DNA from: Bacillota bacterium
GTDB lineage: Bacteria > Bacillota > Sulfobacillia > JAJZYS01 > JAJYTV01
DNA length: 64,000 nucleotides
Reading direction: 5' to 3'
Assembly: GCA_021793645.1 (NCBI GenBank)
Contig: JAJYSJ010000001.1
Coordinates: forward strand, 62,001 to 126,000
The notes beneath the pieces are model-generated. The model did not search any database, had not been told where the DNA came from, and saw nothing but the letters and a program-made list of their open reading frames with translations. The translations under genes and the position numbers were made by a program. Of this stretch, positions 23,375-38,209 are shown piece after piece; position 1 is the stretch's first letter, and each line of letters opens with the position of its first letter.

Positions 23375-24217
23375 TTAGGCGCCCAAGCCAAGCGCGATGG
23401 CGCCCGCGGTAATCAGCGCGGCGCCGAGGATGCGGTGGCGGCCGCCTGGTTCGCGCAGTACGTAGATGCCCAGCACGGTGCCGAAGACGATGCCGAGTTC
23501 TCGCATCGGCGCAAGCGCCGCCACTGGAGCATGTGTGAGCGCCCAGAGGAAGAGGAGATAGCTGAGCGGCGAAAGGATGCCAGCCGCCGCAATGGAGCGC
23601 CAGCTGTGCCGCCACTCCGCAAGCGCGCGTCCCGTACGCAGAGCGGGGATGGTGAGGACCGCGAGGTTTCCGGCGCTGCTCAGGGTGTTGAGTGCGATCG
23701 CCGGGATGTAGTGCAGGGTCACCTTGTCGACCAAGGTGTAGGAAGCGATCGCGAGGCCTACGGCGAGGCCGAGTTGGATGGCCGTGTGCCGAGCGTGCGC
23801 GAAGGAGAACCCTCCGCCGATGGTGAGTACACCGATTGCGATGAGCGCTACGCCCAGCCAACCGAGGCCCCTTAGGTGTTCGCCCAGCAGCAAAACGCCC
23901 AGCAGCGGGACGAACAGCGGCGAGGTGCCGCGCATCAACGGGTAGACTTGCGACAGGTCAGCAAGGGCGTAACTGCGCGACAAAAGCAGCACGTAGATCC
24001 CGTGCAGCGCGATCGTAAGCGCGAGGAAGGCCACGCCGGCGCCCGAGACCGCTAGGCCGCGAAGGCTCCACCACGCAAACGGAGCGTACACTGCGAGTGC
24101 AACCCACTGGAAGGACCAGAGGAAGAGAAGCGGGTTCTCGCTCCGCTTCGCCCAGAGATTCCAAAGCGCATGTACAAAGCCGGAAGCGACCACGAGAACG
24201 ATGCTGAGGGTAGACAA
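23375..24217 (-). CDS. EamA/DMT-superfamily transporter, candidate riboflavin (flavin) importer
   Basis: About 10 TM; MRGTSPLFVPLLGVLLLGEHL and a second EamA repeat; TTG start at 24217 with AGGAGG SD; preceded by FMN riboswitch. Confidence 0.85.
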   Translation of the reverse strand: MSTLSIVLVVASGFVHALWNLWAKRSENPLLFLWSFQWVALAVYAPFAWWSLRGLAVSGAGVAFLALTIALHGIYVLLLSRSYALADLSQVYPLMRGTSPLFVPLLGVLLLGEHLRGLGWLGVALIAIGVLTIGGGFSFAHARHTAIQLGLAVGLAIASYTLVDKVTLHYIPAIALNTLSSAGNLAVLTIPALRTGRALAEWRHSWRSIAAAGILSPLSYLLFLWALTHAPVAALAPMRELGIVFGTVLGIYVLREPGGRHRILGAALITAGAIALGLGA

Positions 24218-24246: not shown

Positions 24247-24279
24247 TTCAGGGCAAAAGCAAAGCAGGGCTCTGCAAGA

Positions 24280-24411
24280 CCTTCTTTCATCCGGACTATA
24301 CCGTCGGTACAGGAGTCACACCTGTTCGTGCCGTGCGGCTCGTGGACTTCGCCTTGACGGCGTCACCACCGATTGGGAATTGGGGTTCCCCCCTCACCCT
24401 GCCCCGAAGGC
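24280..24411 (-). ncRNA. FMN riboswitch (RFN element)
   Basis: Minus strand contains CTTCGGGGCAGGGTGA...TTCCCAATCGGTGGTGACG...AAGTCCACGAGC...ACAGGTGTGACTCCTGTACCGACGGTATAGTCCGGATGAAAGAAGG, matching the conserved RFN blocks. Confidence 0.95.
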
Positions 24412-24530
24412 CATCGTCATTGTCGCACGAGCGGCAGCTGATGTCTTTAGCGACGCAACAGCTGCCCCTCGATTGCAGCGCAGATGGGACCTCCGGCAGA
24501 TGCGGGAGTGCGGCGGGCCCGCCGTGCGCA

Positions 24531-30695: not shown

Positions 30696-32327
30696 CTATG
30701 GTGCGTTCGGGGTGATGCGGAACAGGCGTACGTGCGAAGGCCCAGGGAACTGGTGGACGAGCCTGGCCCACGGTACACTGCCAGACCAGAGTTTGGGGTA
30801 GGCGCGGTTGATGGCGTCCAGTTGTGCGATGCCCTTCGGCTGCGGGACGAGGAAGGAGGACACCCGGCCGCCGGGATAGTGCAGGAGACTTTGGAAATTC
30901 AGGTCTGATGTGATGACGAACTGCTTGGGATTGCGCGAAGCGAGCACGACGCCCCAGAGGGAGAAGGTGTCGAGCAGGACGACGAGACGAGGGTGGGCAT
31001 CGATGTAGCTCGCGATCGTCCGGAACTGTCCATTTCCGGAGGAGATAGGTTGGCTGCTGAGTACTGAGGCGATATACACTGAATCGCCATGACCCAGGAT
31101 AGGGTTTTGCAAAGCTACTAAAGTACCCACATCGCCTACGAGCAGGACGAGCGCGGCCGCGATGCCAGCGACTGCGCGGCGGTGCACGGACACGTGGCTG
31201 AACAGGAACGCGATCAGCAGGAAGCCTCCGGGCACGTAGGTGATGAAGAACCGGTCCCAACCGGCAGACTTGCCAAGGTACAGCATCAGCATCTGCAATC
31301 CCGCCACGGCCACAGTGCCCAGGAGAAGGAGCGGGCCGAGGCTGCTGCGCCCTTTCCTGCGCATGAGGAGGAGGGCGCCGATCGCTCCCGGGACGACTGG
31401 CCAGAACAGCAGAGCGAACTGCGCTGCGTATAGAAAGGCCGCCAGCAGGTGGTGCGTCACTCCAGCAAGGCCAAAGTAATAGTAGGAGCCCGTGCCTACC
31501 GACGAGGCATTGCCGTAGGCGGAGTTCATGAAGTAGAGGGGGTTTTTCATGATCAGCCAGTTCATGTAGACCCACCAGGCACCGACGTAGACGATCGGGG
31601 TGAGGAAGATGGTCAACGCACCCTCGATCTCCGGTGCCGGCCGACGTTGCCAGTACAGGCCGAGCAGCATGCCGCCGGCGAGCATGAACGCGAAGGGAAC
31701 AGCCTCATAGCGGATCAGGAAGGCGACGGCCAGCCAGAGCGCCGCAGCCGCGAGGGACCCCAGGCGCCGATGCTGGAGGTAGGCGATCGCGCCCTCCCAG
31801 GCTGCGAGAAACGTCGCAACCATCATCGCGTCGCTCATGCCGTTGGCGCCGTAGAAAAGGATCAGCGGGTTGAGCAGGTAGAGAGCGCTGAAAAGCAGAC
31901 GCCACAGGCGCCCTAGGCCGATGCGTGCCAGGATGCGGTTCATGTAGAGCGCACCCAGGGCGGCGAACCCAGCGCTCACGATATTGCCTGCAAATCCGTC
32001 CGCGACCAGCGGCGGCCACAGCGGGCGTAGCACCGTCAACGGAAGTTCCAGCAGGCTGGGCAGAGGATTCCAGACGAAGCCGATCGCTCCGAGGTGCGGC
32101 TCGCGGCTGAAGAGCACATAGTAGGCATTCGCGACGCGGGCAATGGTATCGTCCGGCACAATGTGAAGCTGCAGCACCATGTGCAGTCCGAGCAGCAGCG
32201 ACAGGGCAAAGGTTATGCCGGCAAGCGCCAGGCCCTCTGAGAGGGGCGGCCGGTTCGGATCGACGGAGTGTGTGAGGCCGGGGCGCGCGGCCCGCTCTCG
32301 CGAGGCCCACTCGGAGAGGGTGCTCAT
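30696..32327 (-). CDS. Polytopic glycosyltransferase (GT39/ArnT-like)
   Basis: VPDDTIARVANAYYVLFSREPHLGAIGFVWNPLPSLLELPL, many TM segments; start overlaps the GT2 stop (ATGA). Confidence 0.75.
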   Translation of the reverse strand: MSTLSEWASRERAARPGLTHSVDPNRPPLSEGLALAGITFALSLLLGLHMVLQLHIVPDDTIARVANAYYVLFSREPHLGAIGFVWNPLPSLLELPLTVLRPLWPPLVADGFAGNIVSAGFAALGALYMNRILARIGLGRLWRLLFSALYLLNPLILFYGANGMSDAMMVATFLAAWEGAIAYLQHRRLGSLAAAALWLAVAFLIRYEAVPFAFMLAGGMLLGLYWQRRPAPEIEGALTIFLTPIVYVGAWWVYMNWLIMKNPLYFMNSAYGNASSVGTGSYYYFGLAGVTHHLLAAFLYAAQFALLFWPVVPGAIGALLLMRRKGRSSLGPLLLLGTVAVAGLQMLMLYLGKSAGWDRFFITYVPGGFLLIAFLFSHVSVHRRAVAGIAAALVLLVGDVGTLVALQNPILGHGDSVYIASVLSSQPISSGNGQFRTIASYIDAHPRLVVLLDTFSLWGVVLASRNPKQFVITSDLNFQSLLHYPGGRVSSFLVPQPKGIAQLDAINRAYPKLWSGSVPWARLVHQFPGPSHVRLFRITPNAP

Positions 32328-34588
32328 GGAGCCTCCTGCTGCATGGGCGGCTGTACAGCGCCTTGCATCGTCTCGAGCAGCAGCCCGTGCTCGGTCTTTT
32401 CCCAGTAGAACGGGCGCGTCAGGAGCTGGAGCGCTGCCTTCCAGGCTGCGACCGACATCATCGACCAGTAGACAGGCATGGCGACTTCGTACTTGATCAG
32501 CCGCCAGTCGCCGCGTCGAGCGGCGCCGACCATGTTGATGAAGATAAAGCTGAAGTTTCCGGCGAAGAGATTGATCGAGGCGAGATAGTAGAGCCAGCTG
32601 GGAAAGATCAACGGAACCGAGCGCCATAAGGACAGGAACCAAAGCGTAGTCATCAGCCAGTAGAGGGGATTCACCAGGAACGGAAACGGCGTGCCTCCGA
32701 CGACGAGCTGGAACCCGAGAAAGCCCTTCGGCCCAAGTTCTCGGTAGAGTCGCACGGGGTGGCGCATGTGTACAAACCAGGTCTGGATGTATCCCTTTAC
32801 CCAGCGGGAGCGCTGGCGGATCCAGTTGACGAAGTCCGAGTTCGCTTCCTCGTAGGTCGTGGAATCCATCACGAGCGTCTGGTAGCCGGCCTTGTACAGC
32901 CGAATGCCCAGGTCGGCATCCTCCGCGACGTTGTAGGGATCCCAGGCGCCCACGTCGACGAGCGTTCGCACCAGGAAATGATTTGACGTGCCGCCGAGGG
33001 GAATGGGTAGCCGCGCTCCGTGCAGCGCTGGGAGCAGAAGGTCGAACCAGGCCGCGTACTCTGCTGTGAACCAGCGGGTAAGGATGTTCTGGTCCCAGTT
33101 GAAGTAGGAAAGCTTGGCCTGAACACAGGAGACGTTTGCGGGGGCCTTGCGGAACGCTGCGATCGCTTTCTTCAGTTGGTCGCGCTCTGGAATGTCCTCG
33201 GCGTCGTAGATGACGAGGTACTCGCCCCGGGCGTGCGAAAGTCCGTAGTTGCAGGCCTTCGGCTTCGTCTTCGGCTGAGACGGGGGAACGACGAGGATCT
33301 CGATGTAGTTCGGCAGCCGCATGGCTTTGGCGGCGTCGATCGTCTCAAGGTCGTCCTCCTCCAAGAGCAGCTTCACGTCGAGCCGATCCTTCGGGTAGTC
33401 GAGCTCTGTGAGGGCCTTCGTGAGGATCGGCAGCACGGCCGCTTCGCGGTAGGCTGGCACCAGCACGGTGTAGGGGGGCAGGCTGGCGGGATCGAGCGCG
33501 TCGAGATCCTCCTGCGTGATGCCGATCTCGAGGAGTTCGTCCGTCGGGCGCATCAGCAGAATCATCTTGTGCACAAGCACCCAGAAGTAGAGGACGCCGA
33601 GCACAGCGTTCACCACCGTGAGCGTCGGCATGACCGCGACCGCCATCCCGATCGCGAGCAGGATGACGATGGCGATCAGTACGGACCGCTGAAGCAGCGA
33701 GAGCAGCTGGTGCGCGCTGTCCTCAGGCCTGCGCTGGACAAGATCGGCCAGACTGCGGTACGTGTACTCCTGCTGGTAGTGTTCCTCCAGGGCTGCCAGG
33801 ACATCGCGGTAGCCAGTCACAGCCAACCGCAGCGGAACGCCCGACGCCGCCTGCAGGGACTGCGCAGCCGCGGTATCCTCGGGGTCGACCATGGCGATGC
33901 GCAAGCCGAGGCGGGACCGTCCAATGGGCACGGCCAAGTGGGAGCGCCAGAAGCTTTCGGGCATCAAGTCGAAGAGCGTGGCGTCGAGCCGGCTCGCAAC
34001 TGCGGAGGAGCCGCCCTCGCCGTTCAAGAGATCGACGAACGGCAGGCCGTGCTGCTCTGCGACAGCCTCCGCGACGTCAAGGTAGGTCACTTCGTTGCGG
34101 CTGGTCAGCAGCCAGCCGAGGCGCCCGCCATCAGTCGCCTGTGACTGCAGGGCTTCGTCGATTGACGCTGCGGGCAACTTGCCGCCTTGGCGCAGCAGAT
34201 CGCCGATGCGTATCTTCTGGACGGCCGCCTTGGCGCGCGATGCGGTCGCGCTGGGCTTCGCGGACTGCTTCGGCGGATGGGAGGGGTAGACGCGGTCGTA
34301 GGCGGCGGCGAGGTCGGCGCTTGTGGCCTGTGCGAGTCGGATCCTGCGCCCCAGTGCTTTCAGTACGCCGCGCGCGGTGTCGTTCATCGGAAGGCGCGCG
34401 GCGACGTAGAGCGATCCTGGGGTCTGGGCGTAGATCAGCAGACCATGCTCGCGCGCCCCGTGCTCGTCCAAGAGCTGCGCTGCCCGCGAGTCGATGGGGT
34501 CGACCAGGATTGCGCGCGGGCCATAGCGGAACGGGCGCAGGGATACGAGCGGAATCCGCGAGAGATCCCCAAGCACCTGATCGATCAT
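32324..34588 (-). CDS. GT2 glycosyltransferase with N-terminal MshEN (GSPII_E_N) domain
   Basis: RIGDLLRQGGKLPAASIDEALQSQ + RLGWLLTSRNEVTYLDVAEAVAEQ (MshEN repeats); GT2 core VLVPAYREAAVLP...YDAEDIPERDQL...EDADLGIRLYKAGY...QRSRWVKGY. Confidence 0.88.
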   Translation of the reverse strand: MIDQVLGDLSRIPLVSLRPFRYGPRAILVDPIDSRAAQLLDEHGAREHGLLIYAQTPGSLYVAARLPMNDTARGVLKALGRRIRLAQATSADLAAAYDRVYPSHPPKQSAKPSATASRAKAAVQKIRIGDLLRQGGKLPAASIDEALQSQATDGGRLGWLLTSRNEVTYLDVAEAVAEQHGLPFVDLLNGEGGSSAVASRLDATLFDLMPESFWRSHLAVPIGRSRLGLRIAMVDPEDTAAAQSLQAASGVPLRLAVTGYRDVLAALEEHYQQEYTYRSLADLVQRRPEDSAHQLLSLLQRSVLIAIVILLAIGMAVAVMPTLTVVNAVLGVLYFWVLVHKMILLMRPTDELLEIGITQEDLDALDPASLPPYTVLVPAYREAAVLPILTKALTELDYPKDRLDVKLLLEEDDLETIDAAKAMRLPNYIEILVVPPSQPKTKPKACNYGLSHARGEYLVIYDAEDIPERDQLKKAIAAFRKAPANVSCVQAKLSYFNWDQNILTRWFTAEYAAWFDLLLPALHGARLPIPLGGTSNHFLVRTLVDVGAWDPYNVAEDADLGIRLYKAGYQTLVMDSTTYEEANSDFVNWIRQRSRWVKGYIQTWFVHMRHPVRLYRELGPKGFLGFQLVVGGTPFPFLVNPLYWLMTTLWFLSLWRSVPLIFPSWLYYLASINLFAGNFSFIFINMVGAARRGDWRLIKYEVAMPVYWSMMSVAAWKAALQLLTRPFYWEKTEHGLLLETMQGAVQPPMQQEAP

Positions 34589-34791
34589 GGCTGGTCGCCA
34601 TTTCGCGGGCTGCGTCCGCCGGGTCGGCGACGTCCCATCGCCGAGAGGATCCAGTAGAGGACTGTTGCGCACAGGAAGAAGATGATCGGGAATGTGCCGA
34701 TCAGCCAAAAGGTGCCGCCCAGCGCAAAGGCGGTAAGCACAGCGACCATGCCGGTCGCGACGACAAGGCGGACCGCCCCGCGCGGTTTCAC
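34585..34791 (-). CDS. Small two-TM membrane protein
   Basis: GTG start overlaps upstream stop (GTGA); VKPRGAVRLVVATGMVAVLTAFALGGTFWLIGTFPIIFFLCATVLYWIL. Confidence 0.6.
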   Translation of the reverse strand: MKPRGAVRLVVATGMVAVLTAFALGGTFWLIGTFPIIFFLCATVLYWILSAMGRRRPGGRSPRNGDQP

Positions 34792-35525
34792 TGGCTGCCA
34801 CTGGGGCGGATCTCGATCCGCTCGGCGTCCAGTGTCGCGTGTGCAACAAAAGGCAAGGTCAAAAGCCACGCGAGCAGAGCGTGACGGTCTTCCGCCATGC
34901 CGTCGATGCGATATACGCCGTCACGATACAGGCGGAAGCGAATGTGCAGGCCAGGGGCCGCCTCCAGGAGATCGATGAGCTCCTCGATGTCGGTCAGCCG
35001 CAATACGGGATCGACCACCACGGTGATTGACTGTGTCGGCGTGCGGCCTGGCAGGGCGCGAGCGGTCTCCTCCTGGCGATCTTCTTCGGGGGAAGGCGGC
35101 GCAACATCGCTCGCGGCGGCGGTCTCCGCCTCCACTACATGCGACTCCTGCTCGGGCGCGGGGCGAGCATTCAGTCCCGCAAGTCCAATGTGGACCTGCT
35201 GCGCTTCGGCGATCAGCGCGGGAAGGCGTGGGGCCAACCGACCGAGCGGCTCAGAAGCCGCGCTAGCTGCGGATGCGATGCGCTGCAGCATCCCGCGGGC
35301 GATCGATGGATCAGCGGGAAGGCTTTGCGAGAGCAAGACCGGCAGTTCGATGGCACCCACCTCGGGTGGAAGAACCGTGTCCGTCACGACGATGTCGGCG
35401 GGTTCACGGAGCACGGCGAACGGAACTTCCAGGGGAGTGCGGACGATGCGGACGCTGAGTTGCGGCGTGGCCCAGTCCGGGAGACGGTCATCCGGCGTCG
35501 AGCGCAGCAACACTACGCGCGTCAT
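34788..35525 (-). CDS. Hypothetical protein with C-terminal small alpha/beta domain, in glycosyltransferase operon
   Basis: MTRVVLLRSTPDDRLPDWA...SITVVVDPVLRLTDIEELIDLLEAAPGLHIRFRLYRDGVYRIDG; operonic overlaps. Confidence 0.55.
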   Translation of the reverse strand: MTRVVLLRSTPDDRLPDWATPQLSVRIVRTPLEVPFAVLREPADIVVTDTVLPPEVGAIELPVLLSQSLPADPSIARGMLQRIASAASAASEPLGRLAPRLPALIAEAQQVHIGLAGLNARPAPEQESHVVEAETAAASDVAPPSPEEDRQEETARALPGRTPTQSITVVVDPVLRLTDIEELIDLLEAAPGLHIRFRLYRDGVYRIDGMAEDRHALLAWLLTLPFVAHATLDAERIEIRPSGSQ

Positions 35526-35526
35526 G

Positions 35527-35982
35527 TCAGGCTCCCTGCCGCCGATGGCGTTCGGTGGAAGCGTCCGACGCGTGCGGACTGCTTGACGACTCGTCCGACA
35601 GACTCGTGTGGGTGGGCAGCGACTCGTAGGTGCTGCGCGCGGTGGCAATCTGCTGTTTGAGAACCTGCAGTTCCTCGCGCGCCTCCTCTTCCTGTGCGCG
35701 CCAGTGCAGACGCAGCAGGTCAGCGTCTAGCAGCGCCTCGCGCCGAATGCGCTGCGCCTCTGCGTCGGCACTGAGGATCCGTTCGGCAAGGAGCTCGCGT
35801 TCAGCCCGCAGCGCCGCCACTTCAGCATTCACCTGGCTGAGGTGGACCTGCAGGATCTCTCGCAGGCCTTCGGCGAGGCGTTCCCGTTCCTCCGAGATCC
35901 GCAGTCGTTCTTCCAGCGTCGAAAGTCGGCGATCTACCGCGCGTGGCGAATAGCCGAACAACGTGCGACGGAAGCGCTGCAA
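35527..35982 (-). CDS. DivIVA-like coiled-coil protein
   Basis: FRRTLFGYSPRAVDRRLSTLEERL resembles the DivIVA N-terminus, followed by long coiled coil. Confidence 0.65.
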   Translation of the reverse strand: MQRFRRTLFGYSPRAVDRRLSTLEERLRISEERERLAEGLREILQVHLSQVNAEVAALRAERELLAERILSADAEAQRIRREALLDADLLRLHWRAQEEEAREELQVLKQQIATARSTYESLPTHTSLSDESSSSPHASDASTERHRRQGA

Positions 35983-36083: not shown

Positions 36084-36596
36084 GTGCGTTCAGTTCTTAG
36101 GGCAGTCACCGTGTTGTTCTCCCTTACGACGCTGGTCACGGCTGCAGTCGCGCTTCCTTCCAACGCACTTGCCCACAAACCGCCAAACCAGTTGAGAGTC
36201 GTCGTGGAGCAGGTGACGCCGTCCGCCGCAGGCCCGGGACAGACAGTCACGCTGAACATCAGCCTCTCGAACGCTCAACCGTCGGCTCAGCCCAGCATGC
36301 AGGTGGACATCAATGTTCCGCGGTTGCACATAGACCACAGCGTGCAGGACCTGCCTGCGTCGCAGAATTTCCAGGTGTCCTTCACGGTGCCGCTGGATGC
36401 GCAGCCGGATTCGTATGATGGGTCGGTGACTGTCCACTACGGCTCGAATGAGAAAGGCACGGCCCCGTTCTCCCTGAGCGTCCTTCCCGTGGGAGCGTTG
36501 CCTGAGGTTCCCTATCCGGTCGTTCTTCCTGCACTGCTGCTCGTCGGGGTTTCGGCCCTACGCTGGGCAGGCGGTCGCCGGCGCGCGGTCCGGTGA
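36084..36596 (+). CDS. Secreted Ig-like protein with C-terminal sorting-type tail (candidate exosortase substrate)
   Basis: Signal peptide; beta-rich domain; C-terminus LPEVPYPVVLPALLLVGVSALRWAGGRRRAVR (motif + TM + basic cluster); overlaps the exosortase start. Confidence 0.65.
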   Translation: MRSVLRAVTVLFSLTTLVTAAVALPSNALAHKPPNQLRVVVEQVTPSAAGPGQTVTLNISLSNAQPSAQPSMQVDINVPRLHIDHSVQDLPASQNFQVSFTVPLDAQPDSYDGSVTVHYGSNEKGTAPFSLSVLPVGALPEVPYPVVLPALLLVGVSALRWAGGRRRAVR

Positions 36597-38209
36597 CCGA
36601 TCGGACCTCGCTGTCTTCACTGCGAGCACGCAGACGCTGGATCGCCCTTTGGCTACTCGTTGCGATCGCACCGCTGATTCCCTATGCGCTGCCGCTGGCG
36701 CAACAGGCGCTCAGCGACACACCCCTTGCATACCTCGTGTGGATTCCGCCGATCGGCTTCGCCTGGGCCGTCTGGGTTCTGCGTGAGCATCCCGACTACA
36801 ACAATGACCTCGAGACGAACCTCATCCTAGGCAGTGGGCTGGTCGGCATCGTCGGCTTGATCCTGGTTGCCGGTCCGAGCATGTGGCCGTACTCCTTTGT
36901 CGGTCAAGAAATGGGGCTCGTGCTCTGGCCGCTCTGGGCGCTTGGCACAGCGTGGCTGGTGTTCGGAGTCACTGTGACACCACGCATCGCAGCGCCGCTC
37001 ATCTACCTGGTCTTCGCGTGGCCGCCTCCCCTGACGTGGCTGATCACACGGGTGCAGGGACTGCTCACGACAACTGCGCTCGCCGCGACGCATCTCGGCG
37101 CGGGAGCACTGCCCTGGATCGCTGCCAGGAGCAGCGGCACGTTTCTTGTACAGCACGGGAGCGCCATGGTTCCCGTGATCATCAACTCAGCCTGCAGCGG
37201 CGCGGACAGCGTGCTGGCTGTGGCTATCGTGCTGCCCGTCCTTCTGGCCCAGTTCGCGGGACGCTGGCAAGCGAAGGCCGCGCTGGTCGCTCTCGGAGCT
37301 GTGCTCGCACTGGTGCTCAACCTGCTGCGACTTGGGCTGCTGATCCTCGCCCTGCATCTTTGGGGGAGCTACCTGGCGTTCGACGTGCTCCACCCCGTAC
37401 TGGGGTTCGTACTGTTCGCCCTGCTCGTGGTCCTCCTGCTTCGTGTGACGATTGCCCTTGGCCTCTCGCCGCACGACACAGCGAAGCCGTTCGCCGCGCT
37501 GCGGGGCCCGAGTTTGGCGACGGTCGTCGTGGCGGTCATAGCCGCGCTGGTCGTGACTTTCAGCCTCCTCCCGCTGATCTACGCGAGGAACGAGCTTCCT
37601 GGCACGTCGGTGCCGGTGAAGAGCACCAATCTTGCGCGCATCGCACCGCAGCTGCCCGGGTTCAGACGAGTGCTCATCGGCCGCTTTGATGACGCGAGTG
37701 TGCTCGGGAGCGGCTCCAGTTCGATCGCCTACGCCTACTCCACGCCGCAGGGCGCGTACGTGCTGGCACAGATCTACGAAACGCCGAACCTGGGTGCACT
37801 GGAGAGCTACACCTACGGCAATTGTGTCGCGTACCACGGTGACCGTACGGTGGCAACCCTGCCGTTTCTCGTAGGGAGCGGAAAGGTCGCGAAGGAGTAC
37901 GGCGTCTTCTTGCCGCCTGCCAAGGTCGGCGGGACGGGTGCCCCAGTCGCCGATGCGGAGTGGACGCTTTCCGTGAAATCCGGCGGAGAGACCATTTTCC
38001 TTCGGGTGGCGCTATCGGCGCCAGCCGAACCTGCCGAGTACTGGAAGGCGAGCTACTTTGGGAGTTACCGGCGGCCTCTCGGTCTGCTGGCGTTGGCAAG
38101 CGCCCCCGCGCAGGGCGCAATGCCCGCTGGCCTGGGCACGAGTGCGCAGGTGTTGCGCCAGTTCGCAGCGGACTATGAGAGCGCGCTTGTGCGCGCTGGC
38201 GGACGCTGA
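36593..38209 (+). CDS. Exosortase/archaeosortase-family transpeptidase with C-terminal extracytoplasmic domain
   Basis: Cys in IINSACSGADS, Arg in LNLLRLGLLI, His in FDVLHPVLGFVLF within a polytopic core. Confidence 0.85.
   Translation: MTDRTSLSSLRARRRWIALWLLVAIAPLIPYALPLAQQALSDTPLAYLVWIPPIGFAWAVWVLREHPDYNNDLETNLILGSGLVGIVGLILVAGPSMWPYSFVGQEMGLVLWPLWALGTAWLVFGVTVTPRIAAPLIYLVFAWPPPLTWLITRVQGLLTTTALAATHLGAGALPWIAARSSGTFLVQHGSAMVPVIINSACSGADSVLAVAIVLPVLLAQFAGRWQAKAALVALGAVLALVLNLLRLGLLILALHLWGSYLAFDVLHPVLGFVLFALLVVLLLRVTIALGLSPHDTAKPFAALRGPSLATVVVAVIAALVVTFSLLPLIYARNELPGTSVPVKSTNLARIAPQLPGFRRVLIGRFDDASVLGSGSSSIAYAYSTPQGAYVLAQIYETPNLGALESYTYGNCVAYHGDRTVATLPFLVGSGKVAKEYGVFLPPAKVGGTGAPVADAEWTLSVKSGGETIFLRVALSAPAEPAEYWKASYFGSYRRPLGLLALASAPAQGAMPAGLGTSAQVLRQFAADYESALVRAGGR

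Follow-up and report, generated by a model that had tools for sequence, protein, structure and literature searches.

Exosortases and archaeosortase A use a Cys/Arg/His set to cut the tail of their substrates at the outer membrane face. To our knowledge, the acceptor to which bacterial exosortases attach these substrates is still open. In the PEP-CTERM/EpsH system (XrtA, PMC1569441) the tail is tripartite (motif, TM segment and basic end), the genes are linked to those for exopolysaccharide and one enzyme has many substrates. The 2006 survey did not find PEP-CTERM in Firmicutes (PMC1569441), and a comparison of bioleaching genomes that included Sulfobacillus named Leptospirillum ferriphilum as the sole carrier of a PEP-CTERM exosortase system (PMC5418355). 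The surface exopolysaccharide of other bacteria is stabilised by exosortases and PEP-CTERM proteins (PMC12188702). The system of XrtG from Lactiplantibacillus plantarum consists of a CTERM protein, an exosortase and two glycosyltransferases (PMC12854382), and XrtG/Firmicu-CTERM of lactic acid bacteria (PMC12854382) is the closest known arrangement to the locus analysed here, which lies in a 64-kb stretch of DNA (all 64,000 nucleotides of which are referred to below as the window). Its closest relatives come from Bacillota MAGs and Sulfobacillus, in agreement with the Gram-positive-type genome assumed in a preliminary description of the locus.

The window module and the XrtG system have in common a Gram-positive host and a single locus that unites an exosortase, one CTERM protein and two glycosyltransferases. 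By contrast, the window module has a larger exosortase with a fused C-terminal domain, another tail and an MshEN domain on one of the glycosyltransferases (GT2). The exosortase reaches 19.2 bits against the XrtG model TIGR03110 (cut-off 102.75), GT2 displays a weak likeness to the XrtG-associated glycosyltransferase model TIGR03111 (36.3 bits, cut-off 363.95), and the Firmicu-CTERM model was not reported for the LPEVPY-type tails of the module. With PEP-CTERM/EpsH the window exosortase shares the superfamily and the catalytic residues, and all three of the system features listed above recur. Unlike PEP-CTERM, however, the window system resides in a Bacillota host and its exosortase family lacks an EpsI/DUF3485 domain (0 of 36 sequences). 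The exosortase scores 47 bits against TIGR02602 (cut-off 105.55) and 45.1 against the XrtA model (cut-off 208), and PEP-CTERM tail models had no match among the tails up to E=5.

The exosortase gene (36593–38209, forward strand) starts with GTG and encodes 538 aa. The preliminary description had recognised it by Cys, Arg and His residues in SACSGADS, NLLRLG and DVLHPVLG, all of which are located in this ORF, and the identification holds. Pfam PF09721 (Exosortase_EpsH) is matched with 51.8 bits (cut-off 25.7) and TIGR04178, the exosortase/archaeosortase signature, with 41.5 bits (cut-off 23); both models are matched by all 36 aligned exosortase sequences. In this alignment C201, R246 and H267 never vary, nor do S202, G203, D205, N243 and D42-T43-P44. 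The comparison with the EpsH/Xrt families that had been proposed thus confirmed the superfamily but not a subfamily, since all named Xrt/Crt/Art models of NCBIfam 20.0 that were reported for the protein scored below their cut-offs. Judged by its sequence, the protein is a genuine superfamily member of an unnamed subfamily. The AlphaFold2 model (mean pLDDT 89.4, pTM 0.85) consists of a helical membrane core, an extra TM helix (residues 308–330) and a beta-rich C-terminal domain (residues ~340–478) with an NCxxxHG motif, in which C411 and H415 are conserved in at least 90% of the 36 sequences. EpsI/DUF3485 was considered as the identity of this domain and rejected at the HMM level: PF11984 was matched by 0 of 36 homologues, and nothing exceeded the cut-off in 10 genomes, so that any relationship to EpsI would be a distant one. 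No solved structure is clearly similar to the exosortase; a structure search with the model returned nothing at E ≤ 0.001 and weak matches only to LpqN/MTC28-like and START/PYR-like folds. A plasmid collection contained no relative. Exosortases of ~330 aa without the C-terminal domain occur in four loci (L119, L120, L123 and L139), where they overlap or adjoin a gene whose product, ~100 aa long, has [VL]PETPY or TPQTPY and then a TM segment at its end. Downstream of the window exosortase lies a prepilin peptidase (A24) gene (38327–39043, forward strand), found in the same position only in the closest relative (L015).

Immediately upstream, and overlapping the exosortase gene by 4 nt (GTGA; stop TGA 36594–36596, exosortase start GTG 36593), is the substrate gene (36084–36596, forward strand). 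Its product comprises a signal peptide, a weak CARDB/Ig-like body and a sorting tail, LPEVPY-TM-GGRRRAVR (36498–36593, forward strand), and terminates in LPEVPYPVVLPALLLVGVSALRWAGGRRRAVR. The longest form of the ORF begins at ATG 36027; the alternative GTG at 36084 is the better start, because GAGGTG lies just upstream, the signal peptide follows directly and the closest homologue (L015) starts at the same place. The overlapping secreted protein was correctly described, and so was its tail, which was said to be PEP-CTERM-like without being classic: motif, TM segment and Arg cluster are all present, and none of the NCBIfam CTERM models was reached at cut-off by the tails. Likewise, LPXTG_anchor matched the tails below cut-off or not at all. 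As had been noted, no second LPEVPY-like tail exists in the window, the two further matches of a TM plus Arg filter being polytopic proteins. Substrate and orthologue are identical at 22 of 32 positions in the tail, as against 47 of 131 (36%) in the body. The tail pattern lies far above chance, since the tail outconserves the body and recurs on unrelated bodies next to exosortase relatives. A short DNA pattern for PExPY gave counts similar to those of a reversed control and is too degenerate on its own, and the literature texts contained no mention of LPEVPY, LPEVPW or LPEAPY.

Relatives of the exosortase are found in 12 of 61 genomes of the same class, where small secreted proteins bearing this tail are encoded next to them. 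In named genomes, a single-sequence query had no match, whereas an alignment query retrieved 39 loci, from Bacillota MAGs, Sulfobacillus thermotolerans Kr1, S. benefaciens, S. acidophilus AMDSBA3, Alicyclobacillus sp. SP_1 and two deeper lineages; the family thus recurs among acid-loving relatives of Sulfobacillus. Tails are present in 30 of the 39 loci, mostly in the gene adjacent to the exosortase, and several of the remaining loci are on cut-off contigs. The suggested gene-neighbour survey therefore bore out the pairing of tail and exosortase, but the preliminary description had missed two conserved glycosyltransferase genes, GT2 and GT-C (30696–34849, reverse strand). The consensus of 37 tails from related loci is L-P-E-[VA]-P-[YWLF]-A-A-x-L-P, a TM segment and then Arg/Lys. 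Within it L is found in 30 tails, P and E in all 37, V in 27 or A in 5, the second P in 34, and Y, W or L in 17, 10 and 7, followed by A-A; a TM proline at +9 is kept in 34 of 37. The bodies that carry this constant tail differ, being NHL-like, GLUG-like or Ig-like as judged by eye. Comparative evidence of this kind supports the conserved tail as a putative sorting signal. On the exosortase tree, residue +4 of the motif (Y/W/L) undergoes five changes, W being largely confined to a single Sulfobacillus clade and L concentrated in one clade of tandem paralogues, a distribution suggestive of co-inheritance and not proof of specificity. Tandem exosortase paralogues, each with separate tailed proteins nearby, occur in five loci (L095, L096, L089, L091 and L102); LPE[VA]PL tails accompany one paralogue clade and [YF] tails the other, a hint of tail specificity. 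Very small tailed proteins are encoded in L019 (114–797, reverse strand) and L154 (2261–2548, forward strand). If its internal start is right, the L019 protein has scarcely more than a signal peptide and a sorting tail and is a possible natural minimal substrate.

The two glycosyltransferases are the best clue to the function of the module. They are encoded on the strand opposite to the exosortase in the window and thus not in one operon with it. GT2 (32324–34849, reverse strand; the similarity to relatives sets in near 34591, which is probably the true start) matches PF13632 and PF13641 and has an N-terminal MshEN domain of the c-di-GMP-binding type (PF05157, 81.6 bits, cut-off 23.1) with both motif repeats, a predicted c-di-GMP receptor. 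NfrB-type c-di-GMP-activated glycosyltransferases also combine GT2 and MshEN, and NF008411 has a local match to the window GT2 far below cut-off. However, MshEN precedes the glycosyltransferase domain in the window protein, whereas the matched stretch of the NfrB model is at the C-terminal end, and the window GT2, unlike NfrB, is linked to an exosortase. The second enzyme (30696–32411, reverse strand; the ORF extends upstream to 32642) is a polytopic glycosyltransferase of the ArnT/PMT type with a predicted GT-C fold: its AlphaFold2 model matched ALG12, ArnT and PglB in Foldseek (best E 1.6e-5, probability 1.00), and PMT_2 is found in 15 of 21 homologues. A small conserved accessory ORF (34788–35648, reverse strand, 286 aa as called) has no Pfam or NCBIfam match; in several relatives, its last ~80 aa are found again upstream of the MshEN glycosyltransferase. 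Among 61 relatives, GT2 and exosortase occur together in 11, exosortase only in 1, GT2 only in 1 and neither in 48; for GT-C the corresponding numbers are 12, 0, 1 and 48. Exosortase, tail, GT2 and GT-C thus co-occur, and none of the four is present in G004, a 99% complete genome from the same family. In S. thermotolerans Kr1 (L136:7338–14569) the order is substrate, GGDEF protein, exosortase, GH113 glycosidase, GT2 and GT-C, which argues for c-di-GMP control of exopolysaccharide; the window's own genome (G000) has 9 GGDEF matches. Elsewhere in the window, an FMN riboswitch (24275–24415, reverse strand, 91 bits) is located upstream of a 280-aa polytopic ORF (23375–24217, reverse strand), which looks transporter-like, an EamA/DMT permease by eye, and is possibly a riboflavin transporter.

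The distribution of tails bears on what processes them. Among 151 genomes from the class, 31 contain both exosortase and tail, 3 the exosortase only, 2 the tail only and 115 neither (Fisher 2e-26, a value that ignores shared ancestry). Some of the loci used to train the tail profile adjoin exosortases; many matches are nonetheless at unlinked sites. With the first tail profile, applied to 20 genomes, all 12 exosortase-positive genomes reached at least 22 bits and none of the 8 exosortase-negative ones exceeded 16.4. In one of the two tail-only genomes, G129, the tail gene lies 0.36 kb from a contig end; in the other, G073, exosortase was not detected. The latter case and the commonness of TM plus Arg tails would suit an ordinary stop-transfer membrane anchor, with the exosortase acting on something else. 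Yet the tails track the exosortase, the LPExP motif and the TM proline are kept on unrelated bodies and conservation is stronger in the tail than in the body, so that a mere anchor appears quite improbable. It is more improbable still, to the point of being very hard to credit, that a sortase of the LPxTG type is the processing enzyme. LPE does resemble the LP of LPxTG, and several relatives carry sortases. However, the distribution of sortases does not track the tail: the tail-bearing G000 and G001 have no PF04203 sortase, whereas G004 and G035 are sortase-positive and tail-less, and the response of the tails to LPXTG_anchor described above points the same way.

The overlap of the two genes and the presence of a single tail in the window's assembly (36.0 bits by profile, next best 12.9) could indicate an exosortase that serves its neighbour alone, the one-substrate system of the preliminary description. 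This is correct as a count for the window's genome only (genome-wide profile scan; 96% complete, 94 contigs), but relatives with the same exosortase carry 2–7 tails, many of them far from the exosortase locus. Since genomes have 1–7 tails and the bodies are interchangeable, the system is a tail-recognising one, and a strict pair is unlikely. We similarly doubt that the exosortase mainly serves assembly or export of polysaccharide, the tailed protein playing a minor accessory part. Both glycosyltransferases co-occur with the exosortase as tightly as the tail does, and G110 (L097/L132) and G122 (L094/L133) keep an exosortase of the same family with no LPExP tail detected. These two genomes are exceptions, though, in which the exosortases may use a different tail, and the family HMM and the C/R/H set belong to protein-sorting exosortases.

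Collectively, the data make it likely that the locus encodes a module in which an exosortase sorts surface proteins in Gram-positive bacteria of the Sulfobacillia type, and which would tether or organise exopolysaccharide. The most likely role of the exosortase is to cut a surface protein linked with c-di-GMP-controlled exopolysaccharide and to anchor it anew. Substrates would be exported by their signal peptides and stay in the membrane through their C-terminal LPExPY-TM-Arg tail. The exosortase, with Cys201 as the nucleophile together with Arg246 and His267, would recognise LPE[VA]P[YWL] at the outer membrane face and cut there; Cys-dependent cleavage is what we infer from the family. The cut protein would be released or transferred to an acceptor. 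The most probable acceptor is a lipid or glycan belonging to the surface polymer that the co-conserved enzymes GT2, putatively under c-di-GMP control through MshEN, and GT-C make. Because glycosyltransferases are conserved, a lipid-linked or polymeric glycan is the most plausible partner, and the net effect may be an exopolysaccharide tethered or organised at the cell surface. A more specific possibility, which we regard as speculative and rather unlikely, is that the exosortase is a transpeptidase joining LPEVPY-tailed proteins covalently to the polysaccharide or lipid precursor made by GT2/GT-C, with the NCxxxHG domain as the acceptor-binding site. In that case, Gram-positive bacteria would possess a protein-polysaccharide conjugation system gated by c-di-GMP.

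What is new, and well supported, is a variant of known exosortase sorting systems: an unnamed subfamily marked by a tail motif of its own and by a fused domain. The sorting module proposed here is a compact, four-component exosortase module in Bacillota, and it has a cultured, fully sequenced member in S. thermotolerans Kr1, with five tails. Since this cultured strain exists alongside single-substrate, sortase-free genomes, demonstration of cleavage and identification of the acceptor would be unusually direct. Furthermore, the LPExP tail motif provides a ready annotation rule for an unnamed family of sorting signals.
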